Positions 3,613-29,037 of a DNA stretch of 41,197 nucleotides are shown here, piece by piece. Positions within the stretch are counted from its first letter, which is position 1; the number at the start of each line of letters is the position of its first letter. A program made the translations under genes and the position numbers. The notes beneath the pieces were generated by a model that had not been told where the DNA came from, searched no databases, and saw only the letters and a list, made by a program, of their open reading frames with translations. The DNA is from Planctomycetota bacterium (lineage in GTDB: Bacteria; Planctomycetota; Phycisphaerae; Phycisphaerales; SM1A02): positions 1 to 41,197 of the forward strand of contig JACNLW010000060.1 in assembly GCA_014381305.1 (NCBI GenBank). Reading direction: 5' to 3'.

Positions 3613-4497
3613 ATGATGAGAACAATTGCTTTCACTTTTCTTGTATTGATTATTAGTACTGCTCAAGCAGATGACATTGATTCAATTTTAGATTTCCATC
3701 TCACAAATCAATTTGATAGTTCCATTGATAATGGTGGTAAGGTTGAAGCTACAAGATATGGTGCAGAGCTACGACTTCAATACCAAGTGACTGACGATGA
3801 TTATCTGCAATTTCGTTTTCAATACCAACGCGATGATTGGAATTTTTCGGGTGCTACAGGTTTGGGAAATGATGATCCGTGGGATCTTGTTACTACCACA
3901 GATCTTGCAATGCAGTGGACGCACCAACTTCGAGAGAAAACCCAAATTTTTGGTGGACCCATTATTAAATGGAGCAGAGATTCTGGTGCGGCTCAATCCG
4001 ACTCCAGAGTTTTTGGTGGGATGATCGGTTTTGCGCACGCTTACTCGGACACACTTGTTTTTGGTGGTGGCCTTGGTGTTGTCGAGGCTCTAGAAGACGA
4101 CGATCGTTTGTTTCCTATCTTGGTGCTCGATTGGAAATTGGCAGATGATGTAACACTGACGAGTGATTTGACCACTCGTTTTGGTAGTCGGATTGGCGCT
4201 GAACTTGTATGGAAACCAATTGACGATTGGTCTCTTGGGGTTGGTCTTTCATACGATTACAGCCGATTCCGTTTGGATGATTCTGGATATGCCCAAGGTG
4301 GTGTTGGTGAAGCGACTTCGCTCCCACTGCATGTACGAGCTACCTATCATCCCACTCCAAGCGTTTCAATCACGCTGTTGGGCGGAGTCGTGTTTGCTGG
4401 TGAGTTATCAGTCTATGACTCAGCAGGTGTAACACTGCAAACAGAAAATTATGATTCTGCTGGTGCAATCGGCATTCTTGCACGCCTGAAATTTTAG
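3613..4497 (+). CDS. Probable outer-membrane beta-barrel protein, function unknown
   Basis: About 294 residues. The N-terminus MMRTIAFTFLVLIISTAQA is a clear signal peptide with an AQA cleavage site. The rest is made of alternating polar/aromatic strands (for example YLQFRFQYQRDDW, VTLTSDLTTRFG, WSLGVGLSYDYSRF) and ends in aromatic-containing IGILARLKF, with a C-terminal phenylalanine typical of outer-membrane barrels. ATG 3613 follows ACGGA; TTG 3601 overlaps the moxR stop and is less likely. Close spacing to moxR suggests co-transcription. No specific family is recognised; an alternative is a periplasmic beta-rich protein. Confidence 0.7.
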   Translation: MMRTIAFTFLVLIISTAQADDIDSILDFHLTNQFDSSIDNGGKVEATRYGAELRLQYQVTDDDYLQFRFQYQRDDWNFSGATGLGNDDPWDLVTTTDLAMQWTHQLREKTQIFGGPIIKWSRDSGAAQSDSRVFGGMIGFAHAYSDTLVFGGGLGVVEALEDDDRLFPILVLDWKLADDVTLTSDLTTRFGSRIGAELVWKPIDDWSLGVGLSYDYSRFRLDDSGYAQGGVGEATSLPLHVRATYHPTPSVSITLLGGVVFAGELSVYDSAGVTLQTENYDSAGAIGILARLKF

Positions 4498-4878
4498 CCC
4501 TGCTTCGCTTTAACGCACTCAGCACCGCCGCGGTATACCGCTCGCTATACCTACACCAACATTTAATTGACTCCGAGTGAATAAAAACCATTGCCACACC
4601 CACTTAACATACTGGTAACAAACGAGATAAGTTAATCCCAAAATTAATTAACTCCGAGTCAATTAAAAATTTCAGGAATTAATTGACTCCGAGTTCATTA
4701 AAATCTTCAGGATTAAATTCACTCGGAGTTAATTAAATAATACAGGATTTAATTCACTCCGAGTCAATAAGCCGTGTCTTAACACATTGGTAATAAACGA
4801 GATATGAAAATTACGGAATTAATTGACTCCGAGTCAATTAAAAATATAAGGTTTTAATTGACTCGGAGTCAATTAATT
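4498..4878. other. 381-bp gene-free region between convergent genes, holding a palindrome array
   Basis: The stretch lies between two stop codons (plus-strand barrel gene and minus-strand unknown). It contains seven copies of a 23-bp palindrome (listed separately), a diverged 27-bp direct duplication (4603-4629 and 4778-4804, 24 of 27 bases identical, offset 175 bp), and a separate 12-bp palindrome GCGGTATACCGC at 4530-4541. I see no credible reading frame in it. Confidence 0.85.
4563..4876. repeat. Palindrome array 1: seven copies of a 23-bp inverted repeat
   Basis: The unit is TTAATTGACTC, one central C or G, then the reverse complement. Copies start at 4563, 4644, 4679, 4714, 4748, 4819 and 4854. 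Copies 6 and 7 are perfect; others carry one to a few changes (for example TTCATTAA or TTAACTC arms). Copies 2-3, 3-4, 4-5 and 6-7 are separated by only 11-12 nt, giving a 34-35-bp period. Three spacers share CAGGA. The last copy ends 2 bp from the stop codon of the minus-strand gene at 4879. It could be a stack of RNA hairpins acting as a bidirectional terminator, or iterated sites for a DNA-binding protein. Confidence 0.95.
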
Positions 4879-6513
4879 TTATTCGGGGTCTGGTGTGATA
4901 GGAATATTGTCGATCGTGTTCCAGTGTGTCGTATCAATCACAATTGGTGCAGGATTAATGTCCCAAGGCACGCAAGGGAGCGGGGAAGTTTCAATATTAT
5001 CATTCTCGCCATGAGTGCGTACAACGGAAAATGATAGTTTTCCATTTTGAATGACAGAATTCGGTACAACAACACGCGAATTCCAACCCACATCAGTTGT
5101 TTCCGTAAATATCTGAAAGTGAGACAAAGCATTCGTTTTCGGTGTAATCACAATTGGTTCTGAAAGCGATGAAAAGAATAAGGAAACAGTTTCTTGGTCG
5201 ATTTCTGAATCATTTGCGCTTCCATGGCACGCAATAAAGATTTCCCAACTTCCTAGCACATACCGGACTTCTACTTCAGTTTTTTGATTTTGAGAAACAC
5301 GTCTTGCATACCCATGGCGTAGCGAAGAGAGTGTCCATGTAGGAACGAGCGGAGGAAGTTTAACATGCGGTGGTTTTGCTTTAATGACTCCATTTTCTAC
5401 AGGAAAAATAGCCATTCTGTTTGGCATGCTGAGCACTAATTTTTGAACAGGGGGAGTGACAACCGGACCAAAAACTGAAAGGTCTAGTGCTTTTGGTCTT
5501 TTTAAATTCATGGAAACCGTTTTGCGCGCGGGTATCTCAAAAGCGAGAGGTATTTCGTCTTCACCTTCCCATGCAAGTTGGCACAAACTTGTTTCTGGTT
5601 TACTGTTCGCTACTTTAACTGTTACCGATGCGCCGAACAGCGAAGTAAACCAAAACAAAGATTTTGATTGTGCATCACTCCAACGCAACGCCCTGTATGC
5701 TAGTTGTTTACTCGTTAATGTTTCGTCGAGTAAAATACTAAGTAATTTTTCGAGTTTGGTTTGACTTTCAACCCAGCAAGCAAAACGGTGGTCTTCGTCC
5801 ATCGACGTATCTGTAAGTAGATCGAGACAAGCAGCCCCAGCACCTCGGCTTGCAATAGAGAGATTGTGAAATGCAATCCGCCACAATTGTTCGCCATGTA
5901 GAGCCGAAAGTTTTTCTACGCGGTTAGCATTAGGAATTACAGGAGGATTTACATTGTTTTTAGATGCAAGCAGTACCCATCTCCAATAATGCAAGGCATT
6001 CGTTGGCGGCAAGTAGTTCGCTTCTAAAAAAGTTAGGGTTCCAGTTTTTTCTGTTTTTGAAAAATCAAAACTCGGGAATTGTGATGGGAGATCTACCCAC
6101 TTTGGCACAACGCTTTCTCCGCCAAAATAAATTGAACCAGTTCCATTTTTTGGAAGTTCTACTAAAAGAATTGGACCACTGATGGTGTCCCTTGGGTTCG
6201 TTGATGCTGTGGAATCTGTCATTTCAATTGGGCGAACAAAAACACTTTCGTCTGTCCAACCCGTTGAATGTTCTTTTATCTCAATCCACCCAACTACACC
6301 GTCGGCAGTAGTCCCATCTTCAAAAACAACAGGTATTGTCGAAGGCCATTCGTTGCCAAGTTCGCTGCTCAGAAGGCGGACCATAAGAACACCACCCCTT
6401 GGTGCAATTGGAAAAGTGTTTTTCGCAACAATCGAATCAAGCGGTACAGCAGCAGAAACCCTTGCTGCGCACAGCAAAACTGTGACCATGAAACTTTTTA
6501 GAAACAGTTTCAT
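4879..6513 (-). CDS. Secreted protein of unknown function
   Basis: About 544 residues. The ATG at 6513 is chosen because it overlaps the gmk stop as ATGA and opens a textbook signal peptide (MKLFLKSFMVTVLLCAARVSA). The mature part looks mixed beta and helical, ends in a Pro/Asp-rich tail (ITPDPE), and has no motif I recognise. A central block (RVEKLSALHGEQLWRIAFHN and onward) is helical and resembles repeat-type scaffolds, but only weakly. It sits directly downstream of gmk in the same transcription unit and its stop abuts palindrome array 1. Location is probably periplasmic or cell surface. Function is not assignable. Confidence 0.75.
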   Translation of the reverse strand: MKLFLKSFMVTVLLCAARVSAAVPLDSIVAKNTFPIAPRGGVLMVRLLSSELGNEWPSTIPVVFEDGTTADGVVGWIEIKEHSTGWTDESVFVRPIEMTDSTASTNPRDTISGPILLVELPKNGTGSIYFGGESVVPKWVDLPSQFPSFDFSKTEKTGTLTFLEANYLPPTNALHYWRWVLLASKNNVNPPVIPNANRVEKLSALHGEQLWRIAFHNLSIASRGAGAACLDLLTDTSMDEDHRFACWVESQTKLEKLLSILLDETLTSKQLAYRALRWSDAQSKSLFWFTSLFGASVTVKVANSKPETSLCQLAWEGEDEIPLAFEIPARKTVSMNLKRPKALDLSVFGPVVTPPVQKLVLSMPNRMAIFPVENGVIKAKPPHVKLPPLVPTWTLSSLRHGYARRVSQNQKTEVEVRYVLGSWEIFIACHGSANDSEIDQETVSLFFSSLSEPIVITPKTNALSHFQIFTETTDVGWNSRVVVPNSVIQNGKLSFSVVRTHGENDNIETSPLPCVPWDINPAPIVIDTTHWNTIDNIPITPDPE

Positions 6514-7109
6514 GGTGCCGATTGCGCAGTGTCTTGACACTTTTTAATAATGGCTACAGTTTCTGCTACTGCAAGTTCAAGATTGTCATTTACAATAAAA
6601 AAGTCGTACGCACCACTTTCGCTCGCAAAGAGTATCTCTTGTTTGGCTTCGGAAAACCTCCGCTCGATCGAATCAGCATCATCACGCCCCCTTTCGGTCA
6701 ATCTTCGAAGCAATTCATCTTCACTCGGTGGAAGGATAAAAAATCGTAAGGATTCGGGCATATTCTGATGCACTTGCACGCCGCCTTGCACATCGATATC
6801 AAGCAGCATCAAATTACCCTTTGCCAGTACTTTTTCAACTGGCTCTTTCAGTGTGCCATATCGATGACAATGGAAAACTTCAGCGTGTTCTAGAAAAGCT
6901 CTTTCTTGTACTAGCTCCTCAAACCGTTCGGATGTAACAAAGTAGTAATCCACACCATCAGTTTCGCGATCACTTTTTGGACGAGTTGTTGCCGAAACGC
7001 TAAAAATAGCGTTCAATTCTTCTCGTACCCTATGTACGATCGTCGTTTTTCCAACTCCGGATGGGCCAGAAATGACGATCAAAGCACCTTGTGTACGTGT
7101 AGTAGGCAT
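6510..7109 (-). CDS. gmk: Guanylate kinase
   Basis: Phosphorylates GMP to GDP with ATP in the cytoplasm. The P-loop GPSGVGKT is at residues 15-22, followed by the GMP-binding SATTRPKSDRETDGVDYYFV block and LLDIDVQGGVQV, then RRLTERGRDDADSIERR of the lid/arginine region. Length 199 residues is typical. It overlaps the downstream secreted-protein gene by 4 nt (ATGA). It is divergent from der with 84 bp between starts. Confidence 0.97.
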   Translation of the reverse strand: MPTTRTQGALIVISGPSGVGKTTIVHRVREELNAIFSVSATTRPKSDRETDGVDYYFVTSERFEELVQERAFLEHAEVFHCHRYGTLKEPVEKVLAKGNLMLLDIDVQGGVQVHQNMPESLRFFILPPSEDELLRRLTERGRDDADSIERRFSEAKQEILFASESGAYDFFIVNDNLELAVAETVAIIKKCQDTAQSAP

Positions 7110-16230: not shown

Positions 16231-16277
16231 AAATAAACTCACCCCCAGAAATAAACTCACCGGGGGTGAGTTTATTT
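16231..16277. repeat. Inverted-repeat element of family 2, locus 1 (likely bidirectional terminator)
   Basis: Built from the 16-nt unit AAATAAACTCACCCCC. One forward copy is at 16231-16246, a second, shorter forward copy at 16249-16261, and the reverse complement at 16262-16277. The second and third form a 13-bp perfect stem with a 3-nt loop; the first and third can form a 16-bp stem. It lies between convergent genes, and the stop of the DUF456 gene falls in its last bases. TTTATTT on each outer side gives a U-rich tail in both directions. Confidence 0.85.
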
Positions 16278-22040: not shown

Positions 22041-22046
22041 ATTGTA
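22041..22046 (-). promoter_or_regulatory. -10-like hexamer for the mutase gene
   Basis: On the minus strand TACAAT ends 6 nt before the mutase ATG, with the family-2 repeat directly upstream. Any -35 element would lie inside the repeat; no good match is seen there. Confidence 0.4.
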
Positions 22047-22107
22047 ATAAACTCACCCCCAAATAAACTCACCCCCGGTGAGTTTATTTCCGGGGGTGAG
22101 TTTATTT
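22045..22107. repeat. Inverted-repeat element of family 2, locus 2
   Basis: Four copies of the AAATAAACTCACCCCC unit arranged forward, forward, reverse, reverse: 22045-22060, 22061-22076, 22077-22089 (shortened) and 22092-22107. The inner pair forms a stem with almost no loop, and the outer pair can stack around it. It lies 7 bp from the stop of the lipoprotein gene and 10 bp from the start of the mutase gene, both on the minus strand. Likely a terminator for the lipoprotein gene that also overlaps the mutase promoter region. Confidence 0.85.
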
Positions 22108-22114
22108 GGGGGTA

Positions 22115-28495: not shown

Positions 28496-28502
28496 TTTGG
28501 AG

Positions 28503-28508
28503 AGGATA
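28503..28508 (-). promoter_or_regulatory. -10-like hexamer for the carboxylase gene
   Basis: On the minus strand TATCCT ends 7 nt before the ATG at 28495, just downstream of the strong terminator at 28518-28553. If real, the carboxylase unit has its own promoter and the upstream RNA is independent. Confidence 0.3.
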
Positions 28509-28517
28509 CCAGAGCAC

Positions 28518-28553
28518 AAAAAAACTCGGCAGTTGTTGATTACAACTGCCGAG
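28518..28553 (-). terminator. Strong intrinsic terminator on the minus strand
   Basis: A perfect 12-bp stem (CTCGGCAGTTGT with its complement) and 5-nt loop are followed on the minus strand by seven U residues. On the plus strand no T-run follows. It ends about 23 bp before the carboxylase start codon, so it terminates an upstream minus-strand transcript or acts as an attenuator of the carboxylase gene. Confidence 0.88.
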
Positions 28554-28848
28554 CAATAGTCTGTCTGGGGCTACACGCCTGTAAACCCGACGGGTTTACG
28601 GGTTCAGGTTATGTGAAGCCCACTTGTACAGTCGTTTAAATCTATCACTGATCACCTCCTTGAATACGTTGCCATGCTCAGCCGTCACGTCCCATTTGAC
28701 GCCGCCAAGCTATAAAACCCACCCAACTTCCGGGTGGCACACCGCCCAAGGCACTGTGCCTTGGTCGTCGTGGCGCTTGTAGTCGATTTTCCGCTTTTGG
28801 CATTCCATCGAGCACTGCATCCCACGAGTACCCCATTTCTATCGGCAA
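28518..28848 (-). ncRNA. Candidate structured minus-strand RNA of unknown class
   Basis: About 330 nt with no good protein-coding frame but several strong hairpins: 28746-28764 (CCAAGGCA stem), 28719-28737 (CCACCC/GGGTGG), and 28581-28599 (GTAAACCC/GGGTTTAC) enclosed by GGGCT/AGCCC and CTGT/ACAG pairs. It ends in the terminator above. It includes AAGGAGGTGATC (28650-28661), a 12-nt perfect complement of the standard 16S rRNA tail, followed by GTG and a 14-codon frame (MIDLNDCTSGLHIT, 28604-28648). I could not match it to tmRNA, RNase P RNA, SRP RNA, 6S or a cobalamin riboswitch. The 5' end is a guess; it may be a leader instead of a free RNA. Confidence 0.4.
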
Positions 28849-29037
28849 TTAATTGACTCCGAGTCAATTTAGATCCTCATTCATCAAGATACAGGAAGCC
28901 GGTCTTGAACTGTAATCATCGATTAAGCACCCATTAGAAGGGATTTAATTAACTCCGAGTCAATTAAATCATCCGTTTTTTAATTAACTCCGAGTCAATT
29001 AAAATTAGCCGGTGTTAATTGACTCGGAGTCAATTAA
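28849..29037. repeat. Palindrome array 2: four copies of the 23-bp inverted repeat
   Basis: Same unit as the array at 4563-4876. Copies start at 28849, 28945, 28980 and 29015. The last three have a 35-bp period with 12-nt spacers. The final copy ends 9 bp from the stop codon of ftsK (minus strand), matching the placement of array 1 next to a minus-strand stop. Together with the candidate RNA it fills the 550-bp gap between ftsK and the carboxylase gene. Confidence 0.95.

Follow-up and report, generated by a model that had tools for sequence, protein, structure and literature searches.

The intergenic region described here lies within a 41,197-nucleotide stretch of a planctomycete genome (the stretch as a whole is termed the window, and the genome, of 1,878,999 bases in 114 contigs and 95% complete, is termed G000). 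Between positions 4563 and 4876 of the window, seven 23-bp palindromes differ from the pattern TTAATTGACTCNGAGTCAATTAA by 0–3 mismatches, two of the seven being exact, and only 2 bp separate the last of these from the stop codon of the neighbouring gene (4879–6540). No match to this pattern was found in 100 dinucleotide shuffles of the window, and thus the seven regularly spaced palindromes recorded in the initial annotation are borne out. Successive start-to-start distances are 81, 35, 35, 35, 70 and 35 bp. That annotation had four of the six neighbouring pairs 34–35 bp apart with spacers of 11–12 nt; the count of four stands, with all of them at 35 bp and all of their spacers 12 nt long, and the sharing of CAGGA by three spacers was likewise found to be correct. 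We refer to this unit as REP-A (Table 1).

Table 1. Repeat units and longer spacers in the window
Feature	Position	Strand	Match to pattern or basis
REP-A unit 1, outermost left, centre C	4563–4585	+	2 mismatches
Longer spacer with recurring motif TTAACATACTGGTAACAAACGAGATAAG; variants in other arrays	4586–4643	+	by eye
REP-A unit 2, centre C	4644–4666	+	1 mismatch
REP-A unit 3, centre C	4679–4701	+	2 mismatches
REP-A unit 4, centre G on +	4714–4736	-	3 mismatches
REP-A unit 5, centre C	4749–4771	+	3 mismatches
Longer spacer with CTTAACACATTGGTAATAAACGAGATATG version of motif TTAACATACTGGTAACAAACGAGATAAG	4772–4818	+	by eye
REP-A unit 6, centre C; REPIN-like inverted pair with unit 7	4819–4841	+	perfect
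REP-A unit 7, outermost right, centre G on +	4854–4876	-	perfect
REP-B palindrome, single	16252–16274	-	0 mismatches
REP-B palindrome, half units either side (22046–22110)	22064–22086	+	0 mismatches
Second array unit 1, centre C	28849–28871	+	1 mismatch
Second array unit 2, centre C	28945–28967	+	1 mismatch
Second array unit 3, centre C	28980–29002	+	1 mismatch
Second array unit 4, centre G on +	29015–29037	-	perfect

The longer spacers of REP-A arrays carry a recurring motif that, by eye, approximates GTAAC..TTGGTA..AAAC.AGATAAATT. As single-stranded DNA, the inverted pair at 4819–4876 is predicted to form a 27-bp stem with a free energy of −27.6 kcal/mol (z −12.7), compared with a mean of −4.4 kcal/mol for shuffled versions, and none of 200 shuffles was equally stable. 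A scan of the whole window against Rfam returned one tRNA and no match at the array.

A second array, with four REP-A units at 28849–29037, had been overlooked in the initial annotation. Next to it, in the gap between ftsK and a carboxyltransferase gene, the minus strand at 28500–28852 holds a candidate conserved structured RNA of about 330 nt with a terminator-like stem and a T run at its end. Both sides are changed in 26 of its 104 predicted pairs in at least one of five sequences, and the covariation term of −2.95, calculated without a control, is weak. No Rfam family matched this candidate at the gathering threshold, and the best sub-threshold E-value was 0.12.

REP-A is a family found throughout the genome. 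With three or fewer mismatches allowed, 122 sites are present in G000, whereas the reversed control pattern matches nowhere. A stricter pattern for one strand finds 104 sites, every one of which falls within the window or the other stretches examined. At five or fewer mismatches, these stretches contain 130 units in 27 clusters, consisting of 26 multi-unit arrays with up to eight units each and one single unit; this last REP-A-like unit (L023:1173–1195) lies within an ORF of 702 codons. Neighbouring units in the 26 arrays are 34–37 bp apart in 68 of 103 instances (47 at 35 bp and 19 at 36 bp). The view that the unit is iterated is therefore upheld, and the 35-bp spacing noted at the first locus is also characteristic of the copies elsewhere.

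The arrays also have a preferred orientation. When the centre base is used to set the direction of each unit (C for plus, G for minus), the first and last units point inwards (plus to minus) in 16 of the 26 arrays and outwards (minus to plus) in none (sign test p 3e-5), with seven arrays reading minus to minus, two plus to plus and one beginning with a minus unit and ending with a unit of undefined direction. Reading inwards, a C-centre unit comes first at 41 of the 52 array ends. Spacers of 12–13 nt have a mean identity of 0.56 within arrays (61 pairs) and of only 0.31 between arrays (2084 pairs), and the within-array value was reached in none of 2000 label shuffles. Given that spacers are more alike within than between arrays, the arrays probably grow locally.

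Position 7 of the palindrome arm is occupied by a non-standard pair in 63 of 129 units and by the reversed C-G pair in only two. This mispairing resembles the mid-stem mismatch of Escherichia coli REPs that, according to the portion of PMC8266576 available, is required for cutting, although it is a resemblance and not a test. Beyond the outermost unit, a C-rich stretch is found at a distance of 4–9 nt, where CCC is present at 18 of 41 C-centre ends and 3 of 10 G-centre ends, with a background of 9.4% among random 16-mers. By eye, no common target-site duplicates were evident in the outer 16 nt of the 27 clusters. According to gene calls from a simple codon model, the TGA codons of seven flanking genes (at L011, L012, L013, L024, L025, L030 and L031) are located within the outermost palindrome, at a distance of −7, and thus the repeats supply stop codons.

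Three genes for Y1_Tnp proteins are present in G000, and one of these (on contig C87) is located between the REP-A arrays at L030:4978–5070 and 5843–5935. These two arrays are separated by 772 bp, and no other pair of REP-A arrays is less than 1 kb apart. The locus lies between aroK and rpmH/rnc, with rpmH assigned by eye. The reading frame is open and encodes HWH and Y---NP motifs, and the protein matches PF01797 (Y1_Tnp) with an E-value of 1.7e-13 and 51.2 bits, where the cut-off is 23. It also matches the NCBIfam model for REP-associated tyrosine transposases (E 2.2e-15), with a score of 56.8 bits that is below the cut-off of 80. A C-terminal extension is present, Pfam detects no HTH or DnaA-C domain in the protein at E-values of 0.001 or less, and a search of PDB sequences with the protein gave nothing at E-values of 0.1 or less. 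Tandem repeats distinct from REP-A lie upstream of each of the other two Y1 genes of G000, and each gene has a type of its own: the 13-nt GGTCTGACCCC type, a sequence that fits GGGGWSAS, at L036:1950–2090 and the 12-nt GAGGTATACACA type at L037:2023–2640.

Canonical REPs carry a GTAG or GTGG tetranucleotide at the 5′ foot of the hairpin, and GT[AG]G occurs near the feet of REP-A units in only 2 of 260 instances, less often than the 3.6% per 10-mer found as background. The E. coli enzyme contacts GTAG through W94, Q95, E100, H101 and R104 (PMC6006769), and when the C87 transposase is aligned with E. coli RayT, only Q95 is retained among these five positions. The loss of most of the contacts thus fits the missing tag. 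Both nevertheless weigh against the assignment of REP-A to the C87 transposase.

Relatives of this gene (Y1/RAYT) were found in 46 of 181 genomes of the family, and two of them provide parallel cases. The nearest relative, which is 52% identical and belongs to another genome of the same genus (G031), is bracketed by a different palindrome, REP-B (AATAAACTCACCCCCGGTGAGTTTATT). Among 13 genomes of the genus, REP-B at two or fewer mismatches has 163 sites in G000, 11 in G031, two each in G029 and G034 and none in the other nine, and its spacing is mostly 46–47 bp at the loci examined. Despite these 163 sites, G000 has no transposase that is more than 52% identical to the REP-B-bracketed enzyme of G031. 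This disfavours a strict rule of one gene for one family, and a high copy number need not be accompanied by a cognate gene in the same genome, either because of gene loss or because of a gap in the assembly. In another genus (G141), a gene of 40–42% identity is bracketed by a third palindrome, AAGTGACCGGCGGTCAGTT, which has 28 distinct sites in that genome (33 when strands are listed separately), including nine opposite-strand pairs 85–86 bp apart, and single matches with two mismatches in each of G045, G138 and G140. Overall, a palindrome common to both sides was evident at 9 of 33 RAYT/Y1 loci and at 0 of 13 gmk control loci (Fisher p 0.044); at the threshold used, the remaining 24 of the 33 had no common bracketing palindrome. 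A second transposase gene of G031, with 41% identity, sits at the aroK-rnc locus, as the C87 gene does in G000, and has a repeat of the CTCTGAGACTTTTT type upstream but not downstream.

REP-A itself has a very narrow distribution. At two or fewer mismatches it is present in 2 of the 181 family genomes, with 112 sites in G000 and one, at a contig end, in G032, and these same two genomes were the only ones recovered among 400 genomes of the order. An exact scan of 84,980 genomes gave no matches, in a set from which the window's own genome may be absent. Both genes flanking the array at 4563–4876 were found in 11 other genomes of the genus, where they are 19–147 bp apart and have no such array between them; in G027 the contig ends inside the second gene. 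The concern raised initially that the unit might occur only here is thus justified with regard to the species and unfounded within the genome.

A comparison with sister species revealed a different palindrome at the same sites. The second array in the window was compared next, chosen only for its position in the window. In G029 and G034, the two nearest species, the gap downstream of ftsK contains short tandem palindromes that approximate TTGACCCGCGGTCAA plus one base, which we term REP-C and which have a period of 16 bp. The right edge of this gap, CAATTA(A/T)TTGCCGATAG, is common to G000, G029 and G034, and in G031 the gap is occupied by a further repeat, CTCTGAGACTTTTT and its inverse. At one or no mismatch, matches to REP-C on the two strands number 15 and 13 in G029, 4 and 7 in G034 and 2 and 8 in G000, with none in the other ten genomes of the genus; the reversed control gave one match each in G000, G029 and G035. 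Although REP-C is present in G029 and G034, the RAYT query had no match in either genome.

Ten REP-C loci were examined in each sister genome, and these coincide with REP-A array sites of G000 in 7 of 10 instances for G034 and 4 of 10 for G029, with chance probabilities of about 3e-11 and 1e-5, respectively, figures that are flattered by treating all gaps as equal (with approximately 1719 genes estimated from the gene calls). We also examined 20 stretches of four long G029 contigs, which have REP-C matches and therefore do not form a blind sample; five REP-A arrays (L013, L014, L015, L016 and 4563–4876) have an orthologous flank there or in the stretch examined earlier, and REP-C is present in the gap at four of these. 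In total, 13 of the 27 cluster sites were compared, most of them picked through REP-C matches, and 12 of these have REP-C in G029, G034 or both. The one exception is the array at 4563–4876. By eye, the edges of the outermost units coincide at L019, at L020 and on the right sides of L013 and the ftsK gap, and at L031 a decayed REP-C-like unit is followed by the first REP-A unit, which stands where the 16-bp register would place the second REP-C unit. Also by eye, the edges differ by about 15 bp at L018, and extra C-rich bases are present in G000 at L017 and on the left side of the ftsK gap. At L144, L153 and L162 of G000, several REP-C-like halves (TAGACCGCGGGTCAA) are immediately adjacent to REP-B units, as though one family had been superimposed on another.

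REP-A and REP-C have the same outer arms, TTGAC...GTCAA, around different cores. From these sequence comparisons we infer that one REP family may have been replaced by another at inherited sites, with the sites being retained while their sequence turns over. Three accounts of this pattern remain, which are replacement in place, concerted evolution of a single family and separate insertions that happened to use the same preferred gaps. The edges common to both families and the half-decayed REP-C units found as neighbours favour the first two alike. Replacement in place is a tentative proposal to which we assign somewhat less than an even chance. By this account, the ancestor of G000, G029 and G034 would have had REP-C at many intergenic sites, and a transposase of new specificity in the G000 lineage would have converted or re-targeted these hairpins to REP-A, which were then enlarged to 35-bp arrays.

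Several other explanations for the palindromes were weighed. That they are transcription terminators or mRNA 3′-end hairpins, kept by selection for this role in stacks behind genes, draws on the many arrays that touch stop codons, including the seven with TGA inside the outermost unit, on the several REP-A and REP-C sites at gene 3′ ends, and on the inverted pair at 4819–4876, which was called terminator-like (two sites in 4450–4950, where shuffles predict 0.4). However, the array at L015 lies between two divergent genes, an arrangement that also holds for the orthologous G029 gap, and three more (L021, L026 and L027) appear to be divergently flanked when judged only by ORF calls from the simple codon model. 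A pure terminator reading was dropped because arrays are also found between divergent genes. The unpaired or mispaired state of arm position 7, so rarely compensated, likewise weakens the idea of a maintained RNA helix, and with it the stack of RNA hairpins entertained in the initial annotation. Terminators would also leave the transposase linkage and the confinement to one species unaccounted for, and we consider this explanation quite unlikely. The chance is slimmer still that the units are iterated sites for a DNA-binding regulator or a nucleoid or partition protein. Near-perfect dyads with a period of 35–36 bp in 66 of 103 neighbour distances, where 35 bp amounts to roughly three and a third turns of the helix, are what such a protein might require, but it would not predict the orientation rule, the similarity of spacers within arrays, the bracketing of a transposase or the change of palindrome between sister species, and the periods of the relatives (46–47 bp for REP-B, 85–86 bp in G141 and 16 bp for REP-C) are different. 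The earlier suggestion of iterated protein-binding sites may hold, but only if the units, as folded single strands, are taken to be transposase substrates.

Gene conversion and replication slippage might instead be the sole means by which REP-A spreads, with the transposase between two of its arrays as a bystander. Local duplication is indeed evident from the spacers, and REP-C persists in G029 and G034, where no RAYT was detected. This explanation, which we regard as unlikely, must nevertheless contend with the transposases of G031 and G141, each bracketed by its own, different, multi-copy palindrome, and with the absence of such bracketing from all 13 gmk loci. CRISPR arrays have unique spacers of approximately 25–40 nt between near-identical repeats. 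Palindromic repeats, a fixed period and spacers give REP-A a superficial similarity to these or to other spacer-acquiring arrays, yet its spacers are 12–13 nt long and alike within arrays, its repeats vary by several mismatches, and both orientations occur within an array, such that this relationship is scarcely credible. The view that the array is neither a CRISPR nor a simple terminator is thus upheld by the spacers and by the divergent genes at L015.

We therefore favour the interpretation, with a probability of roughly 0.87, that REP-A is a non-autonomous family of palindromic repeats and that the array is one of its clusters. In this view, the most likely cognate enzyme is the RAYT-type HUH (Y1) transposase of C87, and REP-A probably spreads with this transposase of its own. 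We infer that REP-A is recognized, cut, moved and locally amplified as follows. At replication, single units or inverted unit pairs would fold as single-stranded DNA, and the transposase would cut and rejoin the folded strand, such that REP-A units could be seeded into intergenic sites. Local duplication of a palindrome together with its 12-nt spacer would then enlarge the arrays, which would account for the 35-bp period and for spacers that are alike within arrays and different between them.

R. baltica is a planctomycete. It is named among the genomes rich in TIRYT genes and their repeats in the description of TIRtrons (Di Nocera et al. 2013, PMC3733652), which, together with enzymes of RAYT group 1, also known as TnpA-Y1 subclass 2.1 (Corneloup et al. 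2018, PMC6006769), are the known systems closest to REP-A and the C87 transposase. As in TIRtrons, a RAYT-like Y1 gene is bracketed by a dispersed palindromic family without GTAG, and some TIRs are self-complementary and found in dimers or clusters (PMC3733652). The motif GGGGWSAS, reported for the majority but not all of the TIRs, is absent from REP-A, whereas REP-B contains GGGGTGAG, which fits it (PMC3733652). TIR families are described as ‘moderately abundant’, compared with the 122 sites of REP-A, and in the available text of the same paper we found no description of regular 35-bp arrays with locus-specific 12-nt spacers (PMC3733652). Enzymes of subclass 2.1 have in common with the C87 transposase the Y---NP motif and a C-terminal extension (PMC6006769). 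The distance from HuH to Y is about 60 residues in the C87 enzyme, and the accessible portion of that paper gives medians of 58–67 for most TnpA-Y1 subclasses and places 20 of 26 TIRYTs in subclass 2.1. In the same portion, no REP-like sequences are reported in the vicinity of genes of subclass 2.1, in contrast to the C87 gene, a possible member of the subclass, between its REP-A arrays.

REP-A also has several of the canonical attributes of REP/REPIN elements, namely a dispersed palindrome of 20–40 bp, inverted pairs and a RAYT gene flanked on both sides (at L030). To the extent that the sources are available (Bertels and Rainey 2011, PMC3116915; PMC8266576), REP-A resembles the elements of RAYT groups 2 and 3 in being a short, extragenic, high-copy palindrome with inverted pairs that form ssDNA hairpins, in its tandem clusters near RAYT genes and in having one transposase per repeat family. 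It differs from them, again within the available text of these sources, in lacking the GTAG/GTGG foot, with only Q95 of the five contacts kept, and in forming arrays with a 35-bp period and as many as eight units where REP/REPIN elements are mainly doublets. The initial remark that no described bacterial element with this unit was known agrees with our searches, to which the sequence unit is new, whereas repeats of this kind (REP/REPIN or TIR), with links to a Y1 transposase, have been described before. Orthologous RAYT genes of related pseudomonads and stenotrophomonads carry different REP classes, according to the accessible part of Nunvar et al. (2013, PMC3686654), much as the transposases of G000 (REP-A) and G031 (CTCTGAGACTTTTT type, on the upstream side only) share the aroK-rnc locus. 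What differs here, as far as that source can be compared, is that dispersed sites, and not only the transposase locus, are common to species while the palindrome differs. In the open-licence literature, within the text that is accessible, we found no REP population whose sites are common to sister species while the palindrome differs genome-wide.

These findings extend abundant, regularly spaced REP-like arrays without a GTAG tag to small-genome planctomycetes. The dissemination of REPs is described as poorly understood in the available text of PMC8266576. Should existing REP hairpins serve as targets for new ones, the distribution of REPs across species would be shaped by the inheritance of sites and not by new insertions time and again, and sister species whose palindromes differ at shared sites would offer a natural before-and-after pair for tests of a transposase.
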